Assembly: GCA_021813905.1 (NCBI GenBank) | Contig: JAKAJH010000019.1 | Location: forward strand, 1 to 51,530 | Length of the DNA: 51,530 nt | Source: Bacteroidota bacterium | GTDB taxonomy: Bacteria > Bacteroidota > Ignavibacteria > UBA10030 | Direction of reading: 5' to 3' | In this document: positions 3,330 through 12,277 of the stretch, in pieces | How the letters are laid out: every line of letters begins with the position of its first letter | Numbering within the stretch: position 1 is the stretch's first letter | Program-made: the position numbers and the translations under genes | Notes under the pieces: generated by a model | Seen by the model: the letters and a program-made list of their open reading frames with translations, nothing else | Told to the model about the DNA's origin: nothing | The model's database searches: none

Positions 3330-5657
3330 TCACGGCTCCTCGTCAGAATCTGCAAGCCAGATGCTGAATTCGTCGGCGCTTGCGGAGCGGATCGGGGATG
3401 GTTCTGATGCCGCCGGCTCAGCCACCCGGACGGGCACCTCGATTCCCTCGGCGGTGAAGCCGAAAAGATCATCCATTGAGAAAATTCGCTCAAAATGGCC
3501 TTCCCGAAAGAAGTCCCGGAAACGGGAAGCCGCCTCACGGAGGCGATGAAGATAGTACGCAGTGTTCTCGTCCGGGAGGTTCGGGTCCCACTCCTCGGCG
3601 ATCCGGCTGCTCTCGGCGATGCGCACATCTTCGTCCGTGCCGGTGACGTAGTATGAAATGCGCATGCCCGGCGTGACGTACAGGCTCGCGCGTCGCGCGG
3701 CTTCGTGCGCCGCGGAGGCGTTTCGATCCCCGGACGACATGGCTTGCTGATATTCATCGAACGATTCGTGTGCGATCTCCGAGCGGCAGAAGTCAGCTAC
3801 CTGCCACCGGTGAGTCCGAATCATTGTGTGGAAGGATGCAAAGGTGTGGTGAAGCCGGTTGAGATCCTCCATCAGAAGGCACTCGAGGCAGCGCTGCACG
3901 AATAGACGGACGAAGCGCTCAGACGTGCGTGGAATGAGCGATGCTCCGTGTACGACAAGCCGACCGTGCTCATCGAGAAGCGCGAATGACCGTTCGTTGT
4001 ACGAGAGCATCGCGCGGAATCGCTCACCGTTTTCCGGTTGAACCGCCGAAGGACACGCTTCCGCGATGCGCTGCACAAACAGCTCTTCGTTGGAGCGCCC
4101 GACAATATTGTCCGGGATGACCAGGTAGGTGCCGTCGATGCCGGATTGGATCGGCACGCCGTTGAACCGTTCCGCCGTCCGCGCAAGTTGCGTCAGCGAA
4201 TCGGTCAGCGCGGCGGTGAAGGCATCCGCCTGAATGCGGTCGCCGAACAGCAGGCGCGGATTTCCGATGTAGGCCGGAATGGCTCGAAGCAACGCCCGGA
4301 TGGCCACCGGATCAGAGGTCTTCCGCTCACGGTGGGCTGACAACAAGGCATCGGCAAACTGGCGGACGACGCCCAGCACATCGGAACGGCTGTGGGCGGT
4401 GCGTTCCAGCACCAGCCGGGCTCCAAGTGCATCATGACTGACACGCAGGACGTTTCGAAAGAGGCCGGTTCGGAACAGGATGCCGGGAGCGGAGGCGCCG
4501 CCGGGAATTTCCGGCCGGGGAATTGAATGCTTTTGCCGGATATACTCACGCAGCAGGATCGACTCGATCCTGGCCGACATCCCCAACTGCACGGTCACGG
4601 GGAGGGTCAGCGGGCACATTTTCGTGTGTTCGAACGGGACGGGGAGAAGGCGCTCGGCTATGGCGCGGGCACATCGGGCGCGCTGCAGCGCGAATGCGGC
4701 AGCCTCACCCCGACCGGACGTCCACAGCGCTTCCTGATCCGCCGCGGAGAGTGGCGGAGGCAACTCCGCGCTGAGGCCGAGATCGTCCGCAATCGACCGG
4801 AGTGTCGGCGGATCGGCGAGCCGGAGCGTCGCGGCGTGGTCACGGATGAGGTGGGACAGGTCGATAAGATGACGACCCGGCGCTTCGTACTGGATCCTTT
4901 CTGTTTCTCCCGTCGGCGACCAGCCGCGAACCATTCCTTCGCGGAGAGGCCTGGCGTCGCGGCCCAGGACGAAGCCATCGACGGTGTCCTCCGCCAGCGC
5001 ATGCAGGAAGGGGAGGATCCGGTCGGTCAGGCCGATCCCTTCGACCACATCGGCATCTGCCCCGGCGATCCATTCCGCCACTTCATGCAGGATGCCGTCG
5101 GGGGGATTCACTCGGCTGTCGAACGTCTTCTCCGTACCTCCGGACGAGGTGAGGGCGAGGATCCAGTCCGATGGTTCCTTCGAGGCGGATCGCCTCACCG
5201 GAGCGCGCGGGCGGAGGAAGAGCTCCATCTGCACTCGCCGGAGATCGGCGAATGTCATTCCCTTGAACAACGTCACGCCGGACTGCGCGAGATACTGTCG
5301 GATGGGATCCGGGCGAAGGAAGAGTGCGTCGACCTCGTAGAATGCCGAGGCCTTGGAAGCACGTGTCTTGTTGTACTGCCGGAGGACGCGATGCACCGCA
5401 TCCCACATATCGCTCCAGCGCGAAAAAGCCACGAGCGTCCGGCAGGCGTTTGCGCCGGCAAGCTCTTTCATCCAGTACTTGCCGGGAACGTCGCGTAGAA
5501 GGTCGGGATCGGTCAAAAAGAAAAACGGGAAGAACTCCACATCGCGATGGAGCGTCTTCCCGTCTTCCCGCCGGTGCAGCCGGACCGTCTGGTCATCCAG
5601 CAGCGACGCGGCGACGATCCGTTCGTCCGGATTATGTCCGAACAGGATGGGATTCAT
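3330..5657 (-). CDS. Family B DNA polymerase homologue with degenerate catalytic motifs
   Basis: The 775-residue frame matches the PolB layout end to end. An N-terminal domain comes first, then an exonuclease-like region (DVVEGIG...LGRD, residues 204-234; GRHLIDLSHLI, 261-271). The palm approach follows (TVQLGMSARIESILLREYIRQ), then finger and thumb regions with a KKRYA-like segment (MLSYNERSFALLDEHGRL, 550-567). The active-site motifs are lost. Where motif A should read DxxSLYPS there is SHDALGAR (407-414). The motif B lysine and NSxYG are gone (RALLRAIPA, 454-462). Motif C DTD reads GID (506-508). The exonuclease acidic residues are missing too. The frame is long and intact, so it is probably a selected, non-catalytic protein. 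It starts 6 bases after the SPFH gene. Confidence 0.75.
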   Translation of the reverse strand: MNPILFGHNPDERIVAASLLDDQTVRLHRREDGKTLHRDVEFFPFFFLTDPDLLRDVPGKYWMKELAGANACRTLVAFSRWSDMWDAVHRVLRQYNKTRASKASAFYEVDALFLRPDPIRQYLAQSGVTLFKGMTFADLRRVQMELFLRPRAPVRRSASKEPSDWILALTSSGGTEKTFDSRVNPPDGILHEVAEWIAGADADVVEGIGLTDRILPFLHALAEDTVDGFVLGRDARPLREGMVRGWSPTGETERIQYEAPGRHLIDLSHLIRDHAATLRLADPPTLRSIADDLGLSAELPPPLSAADQEALWTSGRGEAAAFALQRARCARAIAERLLPVPFEHTKMCPLTLPVTVQLGMSARIESILLREYIRQKHSIPRPEIPGGASAPGILFRTGLFRNVLRVSHDALGARLVLERTAHSRSDVLGVVRQFADALLSAHRERKTSDPVAIRALLRAIPAYIGNPRLLFGDRIQADAFTAALTDSLTQLARTAERFNGVPIQSGIDGTYLVIPDNIVGRSNEELFVQRIAEACPSAVQPENGERFRAMLSYNERSFALLDEHGRLVVHGASLIPRTSERFVRLFVQRCLECLLMEDLNRLHHTFASFHTMIRTHRWQVADFCRSEIAHESFDEYQQAMSSGDRNASAAHEAARRASLYVTPGMRISYYVTGTDEDVRIAESSRIAEEWDPNLPDENTAYYLHRLREAASRFRDFFREGHFERIFSMDDLFGFTAEGIEVPVRVAEPAASEPSPIRSASADEFSIWLADSDEEP

Positions 5658-5663
5658 TCATGG

Positions 5664-6428
5664 CTACTTTTTGAGCTTGTCGCCGCTCAGGAACGGAGTC
5701 AACAGGTCAATCGGAACCGGGAAGATCGTCGTGGAGTTGTTCTCGGTGGCGATCTCACGGAGCGTCTGCAAATAACGAAGTGTCAGCGCGCTCGGCTGCT
5801 CGCTGAGGATCTTCGCCGCTTCCGAAAGCCGCTGTGACGCCTGGAATTCTCCCTCCGCCGCGATGACCTTCGAGCGTCGTTCCCGTTCGGCTTCGGCCTG
5901 CTTGGCCATGGCACGCTGCATTTCCTGCGGCAGGTCGATCTGCTTCACCTCCACGGTGGAGACCTTAATGCCCCACGGCTCCGTGTGGTTGTCGATAATC
6001 TGCTGGAGCTTCTGGTTGATCTTGTCGCGCTGCGAGAGCAGATCGTCGAGCTCGGATTGACCCAGGACGCTCCGCAGCGTGGTCTGGGACAGCTGGGACG
6101 TGGCGAAGAGGTAATTTTCCACCTCGACGATGGCCTTTTCGGGATGCATCACGCGGAAGTAGATGACTGCGTTTACCTTGACAGAAACGTTGTCCTGCGT
6201 GATGATGTCCTGCGGCGGCACATCCATGGCGACGGTGCGCAGCGAGACCTTCACCATCCGCTCGATGAACGGCCAGAGCCAGATGATGCCGGGTCCCCGA
6301 ACCCCCTCCAGCCGACCGAGCCGAAACACCACGCCACGCTCGTACTCGCGGAGAATCTTTACTGAATTGGCGATCAGAAGAACCAAAAAGAAGACGGCGA
6401 TCGTCATGAGGACTCCAAACGGTTCCAT
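5664..6428 (-). CDS. SPFH/stomatin-like membrane protein (slipin)
   Basis: A 254-residue protein with an N-terminal membrane hairpin (residues 6-24) and a stomatin/prohibitin SPFH domain ([20 protein letters not shown], then [23 protein letters not shown]). It ends in an Ala/Glu/Arg-rich helix ([19 protein letters not shown]) used for oligomerisation. Slipins form ring-like scaffolds that organise membrane microdomains. They are typically encoded beside an NfeD protease that cleaves the slipin C-terminus, and here the nfeD gene lies 16 bases upstream. ATG 6428 was chosen over an extended frame because it has an AAAGGA site and begins at the membrane helix. Confidence 0.95.
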
Positions 6429-6444: not shown

Positions 6445-7812
6445 CTACCGCGGTGAGAACTCTTCCACTCGAAGAGAGAGATTGCGGATCTCGACCACCC
6501 GTACGGGCCGGCCTTGGGCAATGCGTGCTCCTGCGGATTCGGCCTGCCACAGTTCACCATGGACCCGGACCGTCCCGGCCGGGTCGAGCGTGCTGACGGC
6601 CTCGCCGACCTCGCCAACAAGGCCTTCGATGCCGGTGGTGGGCTTTCTCCGCTGCACGCGGAGGCCGAGGGTCAGGATGACGGTGAAGAACAACGTTGTG
6701 ACCACGACGCCGGAGATGATGACGGTCCACGAGAGCTGAACAACCTCGAGGACCGACGGAGTGCGGATGAGCATAACGGATCCCAGAAACAGGGAAATGA
6801 CGCCGCCGATCGCCAGCAACCCGTGACTGGTGATCTTGATTTCCAGCAGGAAAAGCACGACGGCGAACACGATCAGGGCAAGTCCGGCATAGTTGATGGG
6901 GAGCGTATGCAGGGAATAGAACGCCAGGATGAGGCTGATCACGCCCACGACGCCCGGGAAGATCGAGCCGGGATTGTACAGCTCGAACAAAAGGCCGTAC
7001 AGGCCGAGCATGAACAGCACGTAGGCGATGTTCGGATCGCTCAGAAGATCCAGCAGCCGTTCCGTCCAGGTCATCTCTTCAATCTCGATCCGGGCTCCGC
7101 GCGTCGCCAGTCGCACCGTGTCCTCCGCCAGCGCGATCGTCTGTCCGTCGATGCGATCCAGCAACTCGGTCGGAGAACGCGCGATCAGATCGATCACGTG
7201 CAGATTGAGCGCTTCGGTCTCCGTGATCGACAGACTCTGCCGCACGGCATCTTCAGCCCAGGTCAGATTCCGGTTCCGCTTCTCAGCGATCGAACGGATG
7301 AAGGCGGCGGCATCGTTGGTGGCCTTCTCGTTCATGATCGAGTCGGGACCACCCTGCAGGGACACGGGATGCGCGGCACCGATGTTCGTTCCGGGAGCCA
7401 TGGCGGCAATGTGGGCGGCCATCGTCACGAACACACCGGCCGATCCGGCCTGCGCTCCGCCGGGAGCCACATACACGATGACCGGCACTCGCGCGGCCAG
7501 AATGGCGCTGACGATCACGCGCGTGGACTTCAGCAATCCGCCCGGCGTGTTGAGCTCGATGACGAGGCACTGGGCGTTGCGTTCGGCCGCATCGCGGATG
7601 CTGCGTTCGAGAAATTCCGCGGATGAAGGATTGATGGCGCCGTCGAGCTTCACCAGAAGGACGGACCGTGCCGGCTGGGGCGCAAGGCTGGCAGAGCACA
7701 GGAAGAGCGTCAGACAGGCAACGACAACCCGCCGGACAAGCGTGGCACCCGCCCGGGGGAATCGGGAGGCCGGCGCGGTTACCGGAGTCCGGCTCATTGG
7801 TGAAGGTTTCAT
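6445..7812 (-). CDS. NfeD-family membrane-bound serine protease (ClpP-like domain plus NfeD OB fold)
   Basis: A 455-residue long-form NfeD. A signal-anchor ([15 protein letters not shown]) leads into a ClpP-class periplasmic protease domain. There, PGGLLKST and the nucleophile-containing GGAQAGSAG fit the family, with a Lys in the following helix region as general base. Four or five TM helices come next ([21 protein letters not shown] onward), then a C-terminal NfeD OB-fold domain of about 65 residues ([27 protein letters not shown]). It probably cleaves or regulates the SPFH partner just downstream. The open frame continues upstream through the tRNA-Ser, but translating a tRNA is not credible, so I used ATG 7812 (7797 also possible). 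Confidence 0.93.
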
Positions 7813-7859
7813 GATTGGTCGCAGGGGCACTGCGTCCGGTGTGGATGGCACCACTTGCG

Positions 7860-7948
7860 CGGAGAGGGAGGGATTCGAACCCTCGGTCCCGCGTAAACGG
7901 GACACACGCTCTCCAGGCGTGCCAGTTCAACCACTCCTGCACCTCTCC
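7860..7948 (-). tRNA. tRNA-Ser (anticodon GGA)
   Basis: An 89-nt class II tRNA on the minus strand. It has acceptor GGAGAGG/CCTCTCC with discriminator G, and anticodon stem CACGC/GCGTG with loop CTGGAGA giving anticodon GGA. A long variable arm (GTCCCG...CGGGAC) and a T-arm GAGGG-TTCGAAT-CCCTC follow. It reads UCC/UCU codons. No CCA is encoded. nfeD begins 48 bases downstream and could share its transcript. Confidence 0.96.
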
Positions 7949-11067: not shown

Positions 11068-11075
11068 ACAGCAAG

Positions 11076-11163
11076 CGGAAGGGGAGGGATTCGAACCCTC
11101 GATCCCGCGCAGCGGGATACCGGTTTTCGAGACCGGCCGATTCAACCACTCTCGCACCCTTCC
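11076..11163 (-). tRNA. tRNA-Ser (anticodon CGA)
   Basis: An 88-nt class II tRNA on the minus strand. It has acceptor GGAAGGG/CCCTTCC with discriminator G, and anticodon stem CCGGT/ACCGG with loop CTCGAAA giving anticodon CGA for UCG. A long variable arm and a T-arm GAGGG-TTCGAAT-CCCTC follow. Its 3' end lies 8 bases from the convergent glycosyltransferase stop. No CCA is encoded. Confidence 0.96.
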
Positions 11164-11317: not shown

Positions 11318-11782
11318 ATGTCAATTACGGTCGGTCAGAAGGCACCTGAGTTCAAGCTGGTGGATACGGAAAGGAAGGAACGGTCCCTGAGCGAGTTCCT
11401 CGGCAAAAAGACCGTCCTCGCTTTTTATCCGGGCGCGTTTACCGGAGTCTGCACGAAGGAGATGTGCGCTCTGCGCGATTCGATGACGCGCTTCAGCGAT
11501 CTGCACGCGCAAGTGGTCGGCATCAGCGTGGACGCGCCGTTTGCCACAAAAGCTTTCGCCAAACTGAACAACCTCGAATTTCCATTGTTAAGCGATTGGA
11601 CCCGACAGGTGAGCAAGACGTACTGCGGGCTCCACGAGGATTTCGCCGGTCTGAAGGGTTACTCCACCTCCAAACGGGCAGTGTATGTTCTGGATGCGCA
11701 GGGCATCGTGCGATATGCCTGGGTGTCTGAGAACCCCGGCGTTGAACCCAACTACGACGAGCTCACGGCGGCCCTCGCCTGA
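11318..11782 (+). CDS. Thiol peroxidase of the AhpE/BCP type (peroxiredoxin)
   Basis: A 154-residue thioredoxin-fold peroxidase that reduces H2O2 and organic hydroperoxides in the cytosol. The active-site loop FYPGAFTGVCTKEMC holds the peroxidatic Cys (about residue 45) preceded by the Thr of the PxxxTxxC motif. A second Cys five residues later is typical of atypical 2-Cys BCP/PrxQ enzymes. GGAGAAG lies 8 bases before the ATG. It is followed 42 bases on by a second peroxiredoxin. Confidence 0.93.
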   Translation: MSITVGQKAPEFKLVDTERKERSLSEFLGKKTVLAFYPGAFTGVCTKEMCALRDSMTRFSDLHAQVVGISVDAPFATKAFAKLNNLEFPLLSDWTRQVSKTYCGLHEDFAGLKGYSTSKRAVYVLDAQGIVRYAWVSENPGVEPNYDELTAALA

Positions 11783-11824
11783 CGGCGGCTTCGCCGGTCA
11801 CGTTGCCATTCGAAGGAGAATGCT

Positions 11825-12277
11825 ATGCTCACCGTGGGAGAGGCAGCCCCCGCGTTTGCGCTGCCGGACGCGACGGGATCGATTGTTCGGCTGAAAGATC
11901 TGCGGGGGCAAAAGGTCATCCTTTATTTCTATCCAAAGGACAATACCTCCGGATGTACTAAAGAGGCCTGCGCATTTCAGGAGGCACAGCCGAGGATACG
12001 CCGGAAGAGCGCTGTGGTCGTCGGCGTGAGTGCAGACAGCACGTCCTCGCATGCATCGTTCGCGGCGAAATTCGGTCTCCGGTTTCAGCTGCTCAGTGAC
12101 GAATCGAAGGGAACCCTTCAGGCCTACGGCGTCTGGAAGCGCAAGAGCATGTACGGCCGATCGTATATGGGCATCGAACGGACGACGTTTGTGATTGATG
12201 AGAAGGGGAAAATTCAGCACATTTTTCCGAAGGTGTCTGTCGACGGCCATGTCGACGACGTGCTTGCAGTCCTCTGA
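11825..12277 (+). CDS. bcp: Peroxiredoxin Q / bacterioferritin comigratory protein
   Basis: A 150-residue PrxQ. The loop FYPKDNTSGCTKEACAFQ carries the PxxxTxxC peroxidatic Cys and the partner Cys five residues downstream. The Trp/Arg surroundings of the active site (GIERTTFVIDEKG) are standard. An AAGGAGAA site precedes the ATG. It detoxifies peroxides with thioredoxin as electron donor. It is likely in one operon with the first peroxiredoxin and, 20 bases on, the PTPS gene. Confidence 0.95.
   Translation: MLTVGEAAPAFALPDATGSIVRLKDLRGQKVILYFYPKDNTSGCTKEACAFQEAQPRIRRKSAVVVGVSADSTSSHASFAAKFGLRFQLLSDESKGTLQAYGVWKRKSMYGRSYMGIERTTFVIDEKGKIQHIFPKVSVDGHVDDVLAVL

Follow-up and report, generated by a model that had tools for sequence, protein, structure and literature searches.

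A predicted G3-type pseudo-polymerase retained beside a slipin/NfeD gene pair in a Bacteroidota bacterium

The window (the whole 51,530-nucleotide stretch of contig JAKAJH010000019.1 that was analysed) encodes a family B DNA polymerase (PolB) orthologue that appears to have lost both of its activities and nevertheless to have been retained. Our main reading, which we hold with a probability of about 0.7, is that this protein is the sole G3 orthologue of its lineage, has turned into a pseudo-polymerase and is kept by a second, non-catalytic function. G3 is the second most common group of bacterial PolB proteins and, to our knowledge, is experimentally uncharacterised. The features on which the analysis rests are listed in Table 1.

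Table 1. Features of the window PolB and of the two genes upstream of it (positions in the window; domain bounds were taken from the alignment, not from superposition).
Feature	Residues	Position	Strand	Observation	Basis
Predicted inactive G3-type family B DNA polymerase orthologue	775 aa	3330..5657	(-)		frame, homology, AlphaFold model
N-terminal domain	1-138	5244..5657	(-)	17/17 columns conserved in active orthologues kept	alignment bounds
ExoI position	145-147	5217..5225	(-)	DIE -> ELF (D145E, E147F)	alignment to intact orthologues
ExoII Asp position	214	5016..5018	(-)	D -> I	alignment to intact orthologues
ExoIII Asp position	326	4680..4682	(-)	D -> R	alignment to intact orthologues
Motif A position	407-414	4416..4439	(-)	DVESLYPS -> SHDALGAR, D -> S407	alignment
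Motif B position	454-462	4272..4298	(-)	KILINSFYG -> RALLRAIPA	alignment
Motif C position	506-508	4134..4142	(-)	DTD -> GID	orthologue and KOD-type alignments
Thumb	573-727	3477..3941	(-)	20/23 conserved columns kept	alignment
Tail motif SIWLA	765-769	3351..3365	(-)	common across the order	alignment; predicted disordered
Slipin (SPFH/Band_7)		5664..6428	(-)	directly upstream of PolB, same operon	PF01145 match
NfeD1b-type membrane protein		6445..7812	(-)	with a ClpP-like domain; next gene upstream from slipin; inferred start codon	Pfam

The PolB frame started with ATG and contained no internal stops. A sequencing or assembly frameshift was rejected as none was present in it. A preliminary description, made from the letters alone, had read the frame as a full-length PolB homologue; its coordinates and residue readings were correct, and the homology was confirmed by the profile search and structure comparison that it had proposed, as well as by orthologues. 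The Pfam DNA_pol_B profile matched residues 561-712 (E 3e-4, slightly below the curated cut-off). From 72 orthologues, AlphaFold gave a model (pLDDT 87.9, pTM 0.84) that showed the complete family B fold of N-terminal domain, exonuclease, palm, fingers and thumb, and superposed on solved PolB structures with Z scores of 23-28 (KOD-type PolB 28.4, E. coli Pol II 24.5 and Pol epsilon core 23.8, with approximately 650 residues aligned). Orthologues were present in 49 of 61 related genomes (best E 3e-179) and in 75 of the 98 genomes of the taxonomic order, and extended to further families of the class. No match to the gene was found in genome G001 of the window's own genus, which is 55% complete. 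A paralogue standing beside an intact G3 copy was rejected since no second G3 copy was found in the window's genome; the sole other PolB found there was of the PolB2/G2 type. At individual loci, an apparent gene split (L033/G017) was a run of N, and a second C-terminal gene fragment lay at a contig end beside a full copy (L083, G021:C34), being either a duplicate or contamination. An Armatimonadetes MAG contig carried an intact G3 PolB ending in QPGLFD (L034, 2031-4157), possibly by transfer or misbinning.

In intact orthologues the exonuclease reads LDIET, NFD and YALDD, and the polymerase DVESLYPS, KILINSFYG and EVDTDG. The preliminary claim that both active sites are gone from the window PolB was borne out. 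All four exonuclease acids were replaced (E145, F147, I214 and R326), leaving none of the ExoI-III acids of a proofreading enzyme. Substitutions had likewise removed the Asp of motif A and the first Asp of motif C (G506), with the second motif C Asp retained (D508), and the Lys and NSxYG of motif B were lost (K to R454, N to R458, Y to P461, G to A462). Also lost were KxY and those residues of the fingers that would be expected to contact dNTP. An alignment restoring the catalytic aspartates in another register would have overturned this result, and none was found: GID fell on DTD in a separate phmmer alignment to the KOD-type polymerase (1wns/6wya), and a scan of the other two frames of the PolB strand contained no catalytic motif. 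A perfect-looking clamp pentapeptide, QMELF (residues 143-147, 5217-5231), occurred where ExoI stood; its residues form part of the predicted ExoI strand, relatives do not have it there, and it was judged to be due to chance.

A rebuilt active site could in principle keep such a protein working as a polymerase. Archaeal PolB2 proved to be active despite a missing motif C Asp (PMC7544198, PMC11791011), and the window protein keeps D508 and has D409 two residues past the lost motif A Asp. We nevertheless regard continued polymerase activity as highly improbable: the PolB2 of this same genome retains motif A (DFVSMYPS), whereas the window PolB has lost the motif A Asp and Tyr, the motif B Lys, Asn, Tyr and Gly, and the basic residues of the fingers.

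The assignment to G3 came from the active relatives. An intact orthologue had its best phage matches in Salinibacter and Nostoc/Anabaena phages, which have been named within group G3 (PMC7544198), and intact orthologues carried E-V-DTDG at motif C, matching the E-x-DTDG pattern whose Glu has been described for the Pol-epsilon-N-like clade (PMC7544198). The window PolB would be a single-copy orthologue of bacterial G3 (Pol-epsilon-N-like) polymerases, an indirect assignment made through these phages and this pattern. It shares with G3 proteins the orthologous lineage, the fold and the length. Published G3 proteins are described with conserved exonuclease and polymerase sites, as a 2026 survey also states (PMC12926913), together with a clamp motif (PMC7544198, PMC12926913). 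In contrast, both sites were lost in the window PolB, the orthologues varied and the loss was recurrent. The window protein thus appears to be a G3 orthologue deprived of the activity of its group.

Three states were found among same-locus relatives: both sites were intact in 47 rows, only the exonuclease was lost in 26 and both were lost in 18, while polymerase loss without exonuclease loss occurred in none (rows scorable at both sites; the exonuclease count is made less sharp by some incomplete rows and by the broken frame of L078). Among families beyond the order, two had lost the exonuclease, and no examined row had lost the polymerase. Besides the window's family, inactive members occurred in three others (f2, f3 and f5). 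On the tree of neighbouring genes, polymerase loss required 8 changes, or 11 if irreversible, and the replacement residues differed from lineage to lineage. The PolB gene tree grouped all inactive rows of the window's family and thereby suggested a single inactivation there, yet these rows had the longest branches, for which the program warns of an artefact. A single clade of them was rejected by the neighbouring genes (AU p 5.75e-6); a smaller clade without g4 and g15 was not (p 0.09). About five or six independent polymerase losses are a cautious minimum. Judged by these motifs, loss recurs in the order, always with exonuclease loss; neither this pattern nor the orthology to an active polymerase figured in the preliminary description. 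Dependence on PolB2 was considered and rejected: PolB2 was present in 76 of 98 genomes of the order but was not found in the inactive genera g2 and g14, so there is no simple link of inactivation to it.

Selection on the inactive proteins was uneven along the chain. The window PolB kept 37 of 40 conserved columns in the N-terminal domain and thumb, compared with 31 of 78 in the palm and fingers (Fisher p 1.2e-8). With the topology fixed by neighbouring genes, the terminal branch of the window, long as terminal branches were in general, measured 0.48 substitutions per site for the N-terminal domain and 0.36 for the thumb, compared with 2.04 for palm and fingers and 1.83 for the exonuclease. The ratio of palm and fingers to N-terminal domain and thumb had a median of 2.53 in dead rows and 0.93 in intact ones (p 4e-6, with rows that are not independent). 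The dN/dS values, obtained by a simple counting method from genera other than the window's own, were 0.11-0.15 in the inactive sister genus g9 (close species with unsaturated dS), 0.125 in inactive g19, 0.03-0.08 in intact genera and 0.09-0.17 in exonuclease-dead genera. Purifying selection without catalytic residues is therefore seen as domain retention and branch lengths in the window and as dN/dS in g9 and g19.

Slow decay, in which a dispensable enzyme under relaxed selection is due for loss, would fit the 23 of 98 genomes of the order that lack the gene. It would also fit genus g15 (L054 and L055, at the same locus), in which the proteins are so divergent that Pfam barely detects them and dN/dS reached 0.29; these kept an IWLD tail. 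We consider it quite unlikely for the window gene, as complete dead copies were free of frameshifts, the N-terminal and thumb columns are kept to the extent given in Table 1, and dN/dS in g9 was far from the value near 1 that the preliminary description had named as a counter-sign. Its claim that selection maintains the gene was upheld on the same grounds. Given the constraint on the N-terminal domain, thumb and tail and the low dN/dS in the inactive sister genus, the window gene is, as far as its sequence can tell, a retained pseudo-polymerase and not a decaying one.

The two genes upstream of PolB form an NfeD1b-SPFH1b (slipin) pair as surveyed in PMC2636767, with matches to PF25145 (NfeD1b_N), PF24961, PF01957 and PF01145; that survey mentions no polymerase, which is the extra gene here. 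A report of PolB in an NfeD-slipin operon was not found in the open-access literature. The distance of 6 bases from the slipin stop to the PolB start, noted before, was confirmed in the window, and in almost all loci, across five families, it ranged from -26 to +28 bases. The gene order, which had been proposed as a check, recurred throughout the order as NfeD-slipin-PolB-(Csp)-MCM_C-Maf in most of the 75 genomes. Elsewhere in the window were genes for tRNA-Ser(GGA) (7859-7948) and tRNA-Ser(CGA) (11075-11163) and two tandem peroxiredoxin-like genes (11318-12277). The operon is real and conserved, yet it does not explain the inactivation, since it also houses fully intact polymerases. The earlier suggestion of a tie between the SPFH/NfeD context and the loss of activity was therefore not supported, all the more as family f5 has an intact PolB with MCM_C/Maf but no adjoining slipin/NfeD.

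A membrane-linked role with slipin/NfeD, for example as a DNA tether or as a regulator of the SPFH assembly, would make catalysis dispensable. The tight stop-to-start spacing, through which PolB is probably translationally coupled to slipin, and a C-terminal I-W-L tail found mainly in families having the slipin neighbour are consistent with such a role. The active-looking enzymes in the same operon and the f5 arrangement speak against it, and a literature link was not found; on balance we regard it as unlikely. Similarly doubtful is the broader proposal that G3 proteins of this order have a structural, slipin/NfeD-linked role as their conserved task, with DNA synthesis an option that was repeatedly dropped, proofreading first. 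A role in anti-phage defence was rejected, as the only match was to the PolB-like stretch of a homing endonuclease model.

The I-W-L-[DA] tail followed a disordered linker in most loci of the order, and its Ile was kept in 17 of 17 dead rows and its Leu in 16. Proteins of f5 mostly ended in I-E-F-D or I-S-L-D, and QxGLF occurred near the C-terminus in L034 and L104 only. Such a tail could represent a clamp peptide that has diverged, or it could bind something else.

The N-terminal domain and thumb of PolB proteins hold template and duplex. A second, non-copying job for the G3 protein probably exists; it would reside in the N-terminal domain, thumb and tail, and alone would now maintain the gene. 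DNA binding or scaffolding, which the preliminary description had offered as examples, is plausible. Most likely the window PolB would bind a nucleic-acid structure, a partner (for instance the sliding clamp or a different polymerase), or both. During replication or repair of DNA it might serve as a scaffold or placeholder, much as ImuB does and as does Pol epsilon with its C-terminal half. DNA binding may also be gone, because several basic residues near DNA were changed (reference palm positions K572, K574 and K588) and because yeast Pol epsilon no longer binds DNA through its inactive half (PMC6265327). A dead fold that only joins protein partners, for which that half is the precedent, would agree with the loss of motif B, KxY and several basic contacts and with the retained tail motif. 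We find it rather unlikely, given that the thumb was among the best conserved parts and that its conserved arginines were mostly still basic in the window PolB.

Compared with known systems, the window PolB resembles archaeal PolB2 and bacterial G2 in the lost exonuclease and altered motif C. PolB2, however, forms a separate clade, retains motif A and carries out translesion synthesis, and its iRadA-PPB2-PolB2 operon was represented in this genome by a different gene: at L109 (3918-7227, G000:C35), an iRadA-like protein (230 aa), a PPB2-like protein (93 aa) and PolB2 followed in order, matching predicted PolB2 mutasome operons, and a likely clamp motif, QELPLF, lies close to the C-terminus of this PolB2. 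Inactive PolY proteins, ImuB among them, are dead polymerases kept as mutasome platforms; ImuB belongs to the Y family and is associated with ImuA/DnaE2, an association not seen for the window PolB. In eukaryotic Pol epsilon, the C-terminal half (C-Pol2) has a PolB fold that is catalytically dead and has been kept in a structural role. It is fused to an active half, whereas the window PolB is a protein of its own, in a genome where no active G3 copy was found. Dead polymerases as platforms are thus of a known kind (ImuB, C-Pol2); we found no report of inactive G3 proteins in the open-access literature, where this form appears to be unreported. The series from intact through exonuclease-dead to fully dead at one locus separates the required parts (N-terminal domain, thumb and tail) from the losable catalysis, and this natural set of orthologues makes a non-catalytic function directly testable. 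The window PolB would also be a bacterial counterpart of the dead half of Pol epsilon; the active half of that enzyme falls in the same clade as G3.
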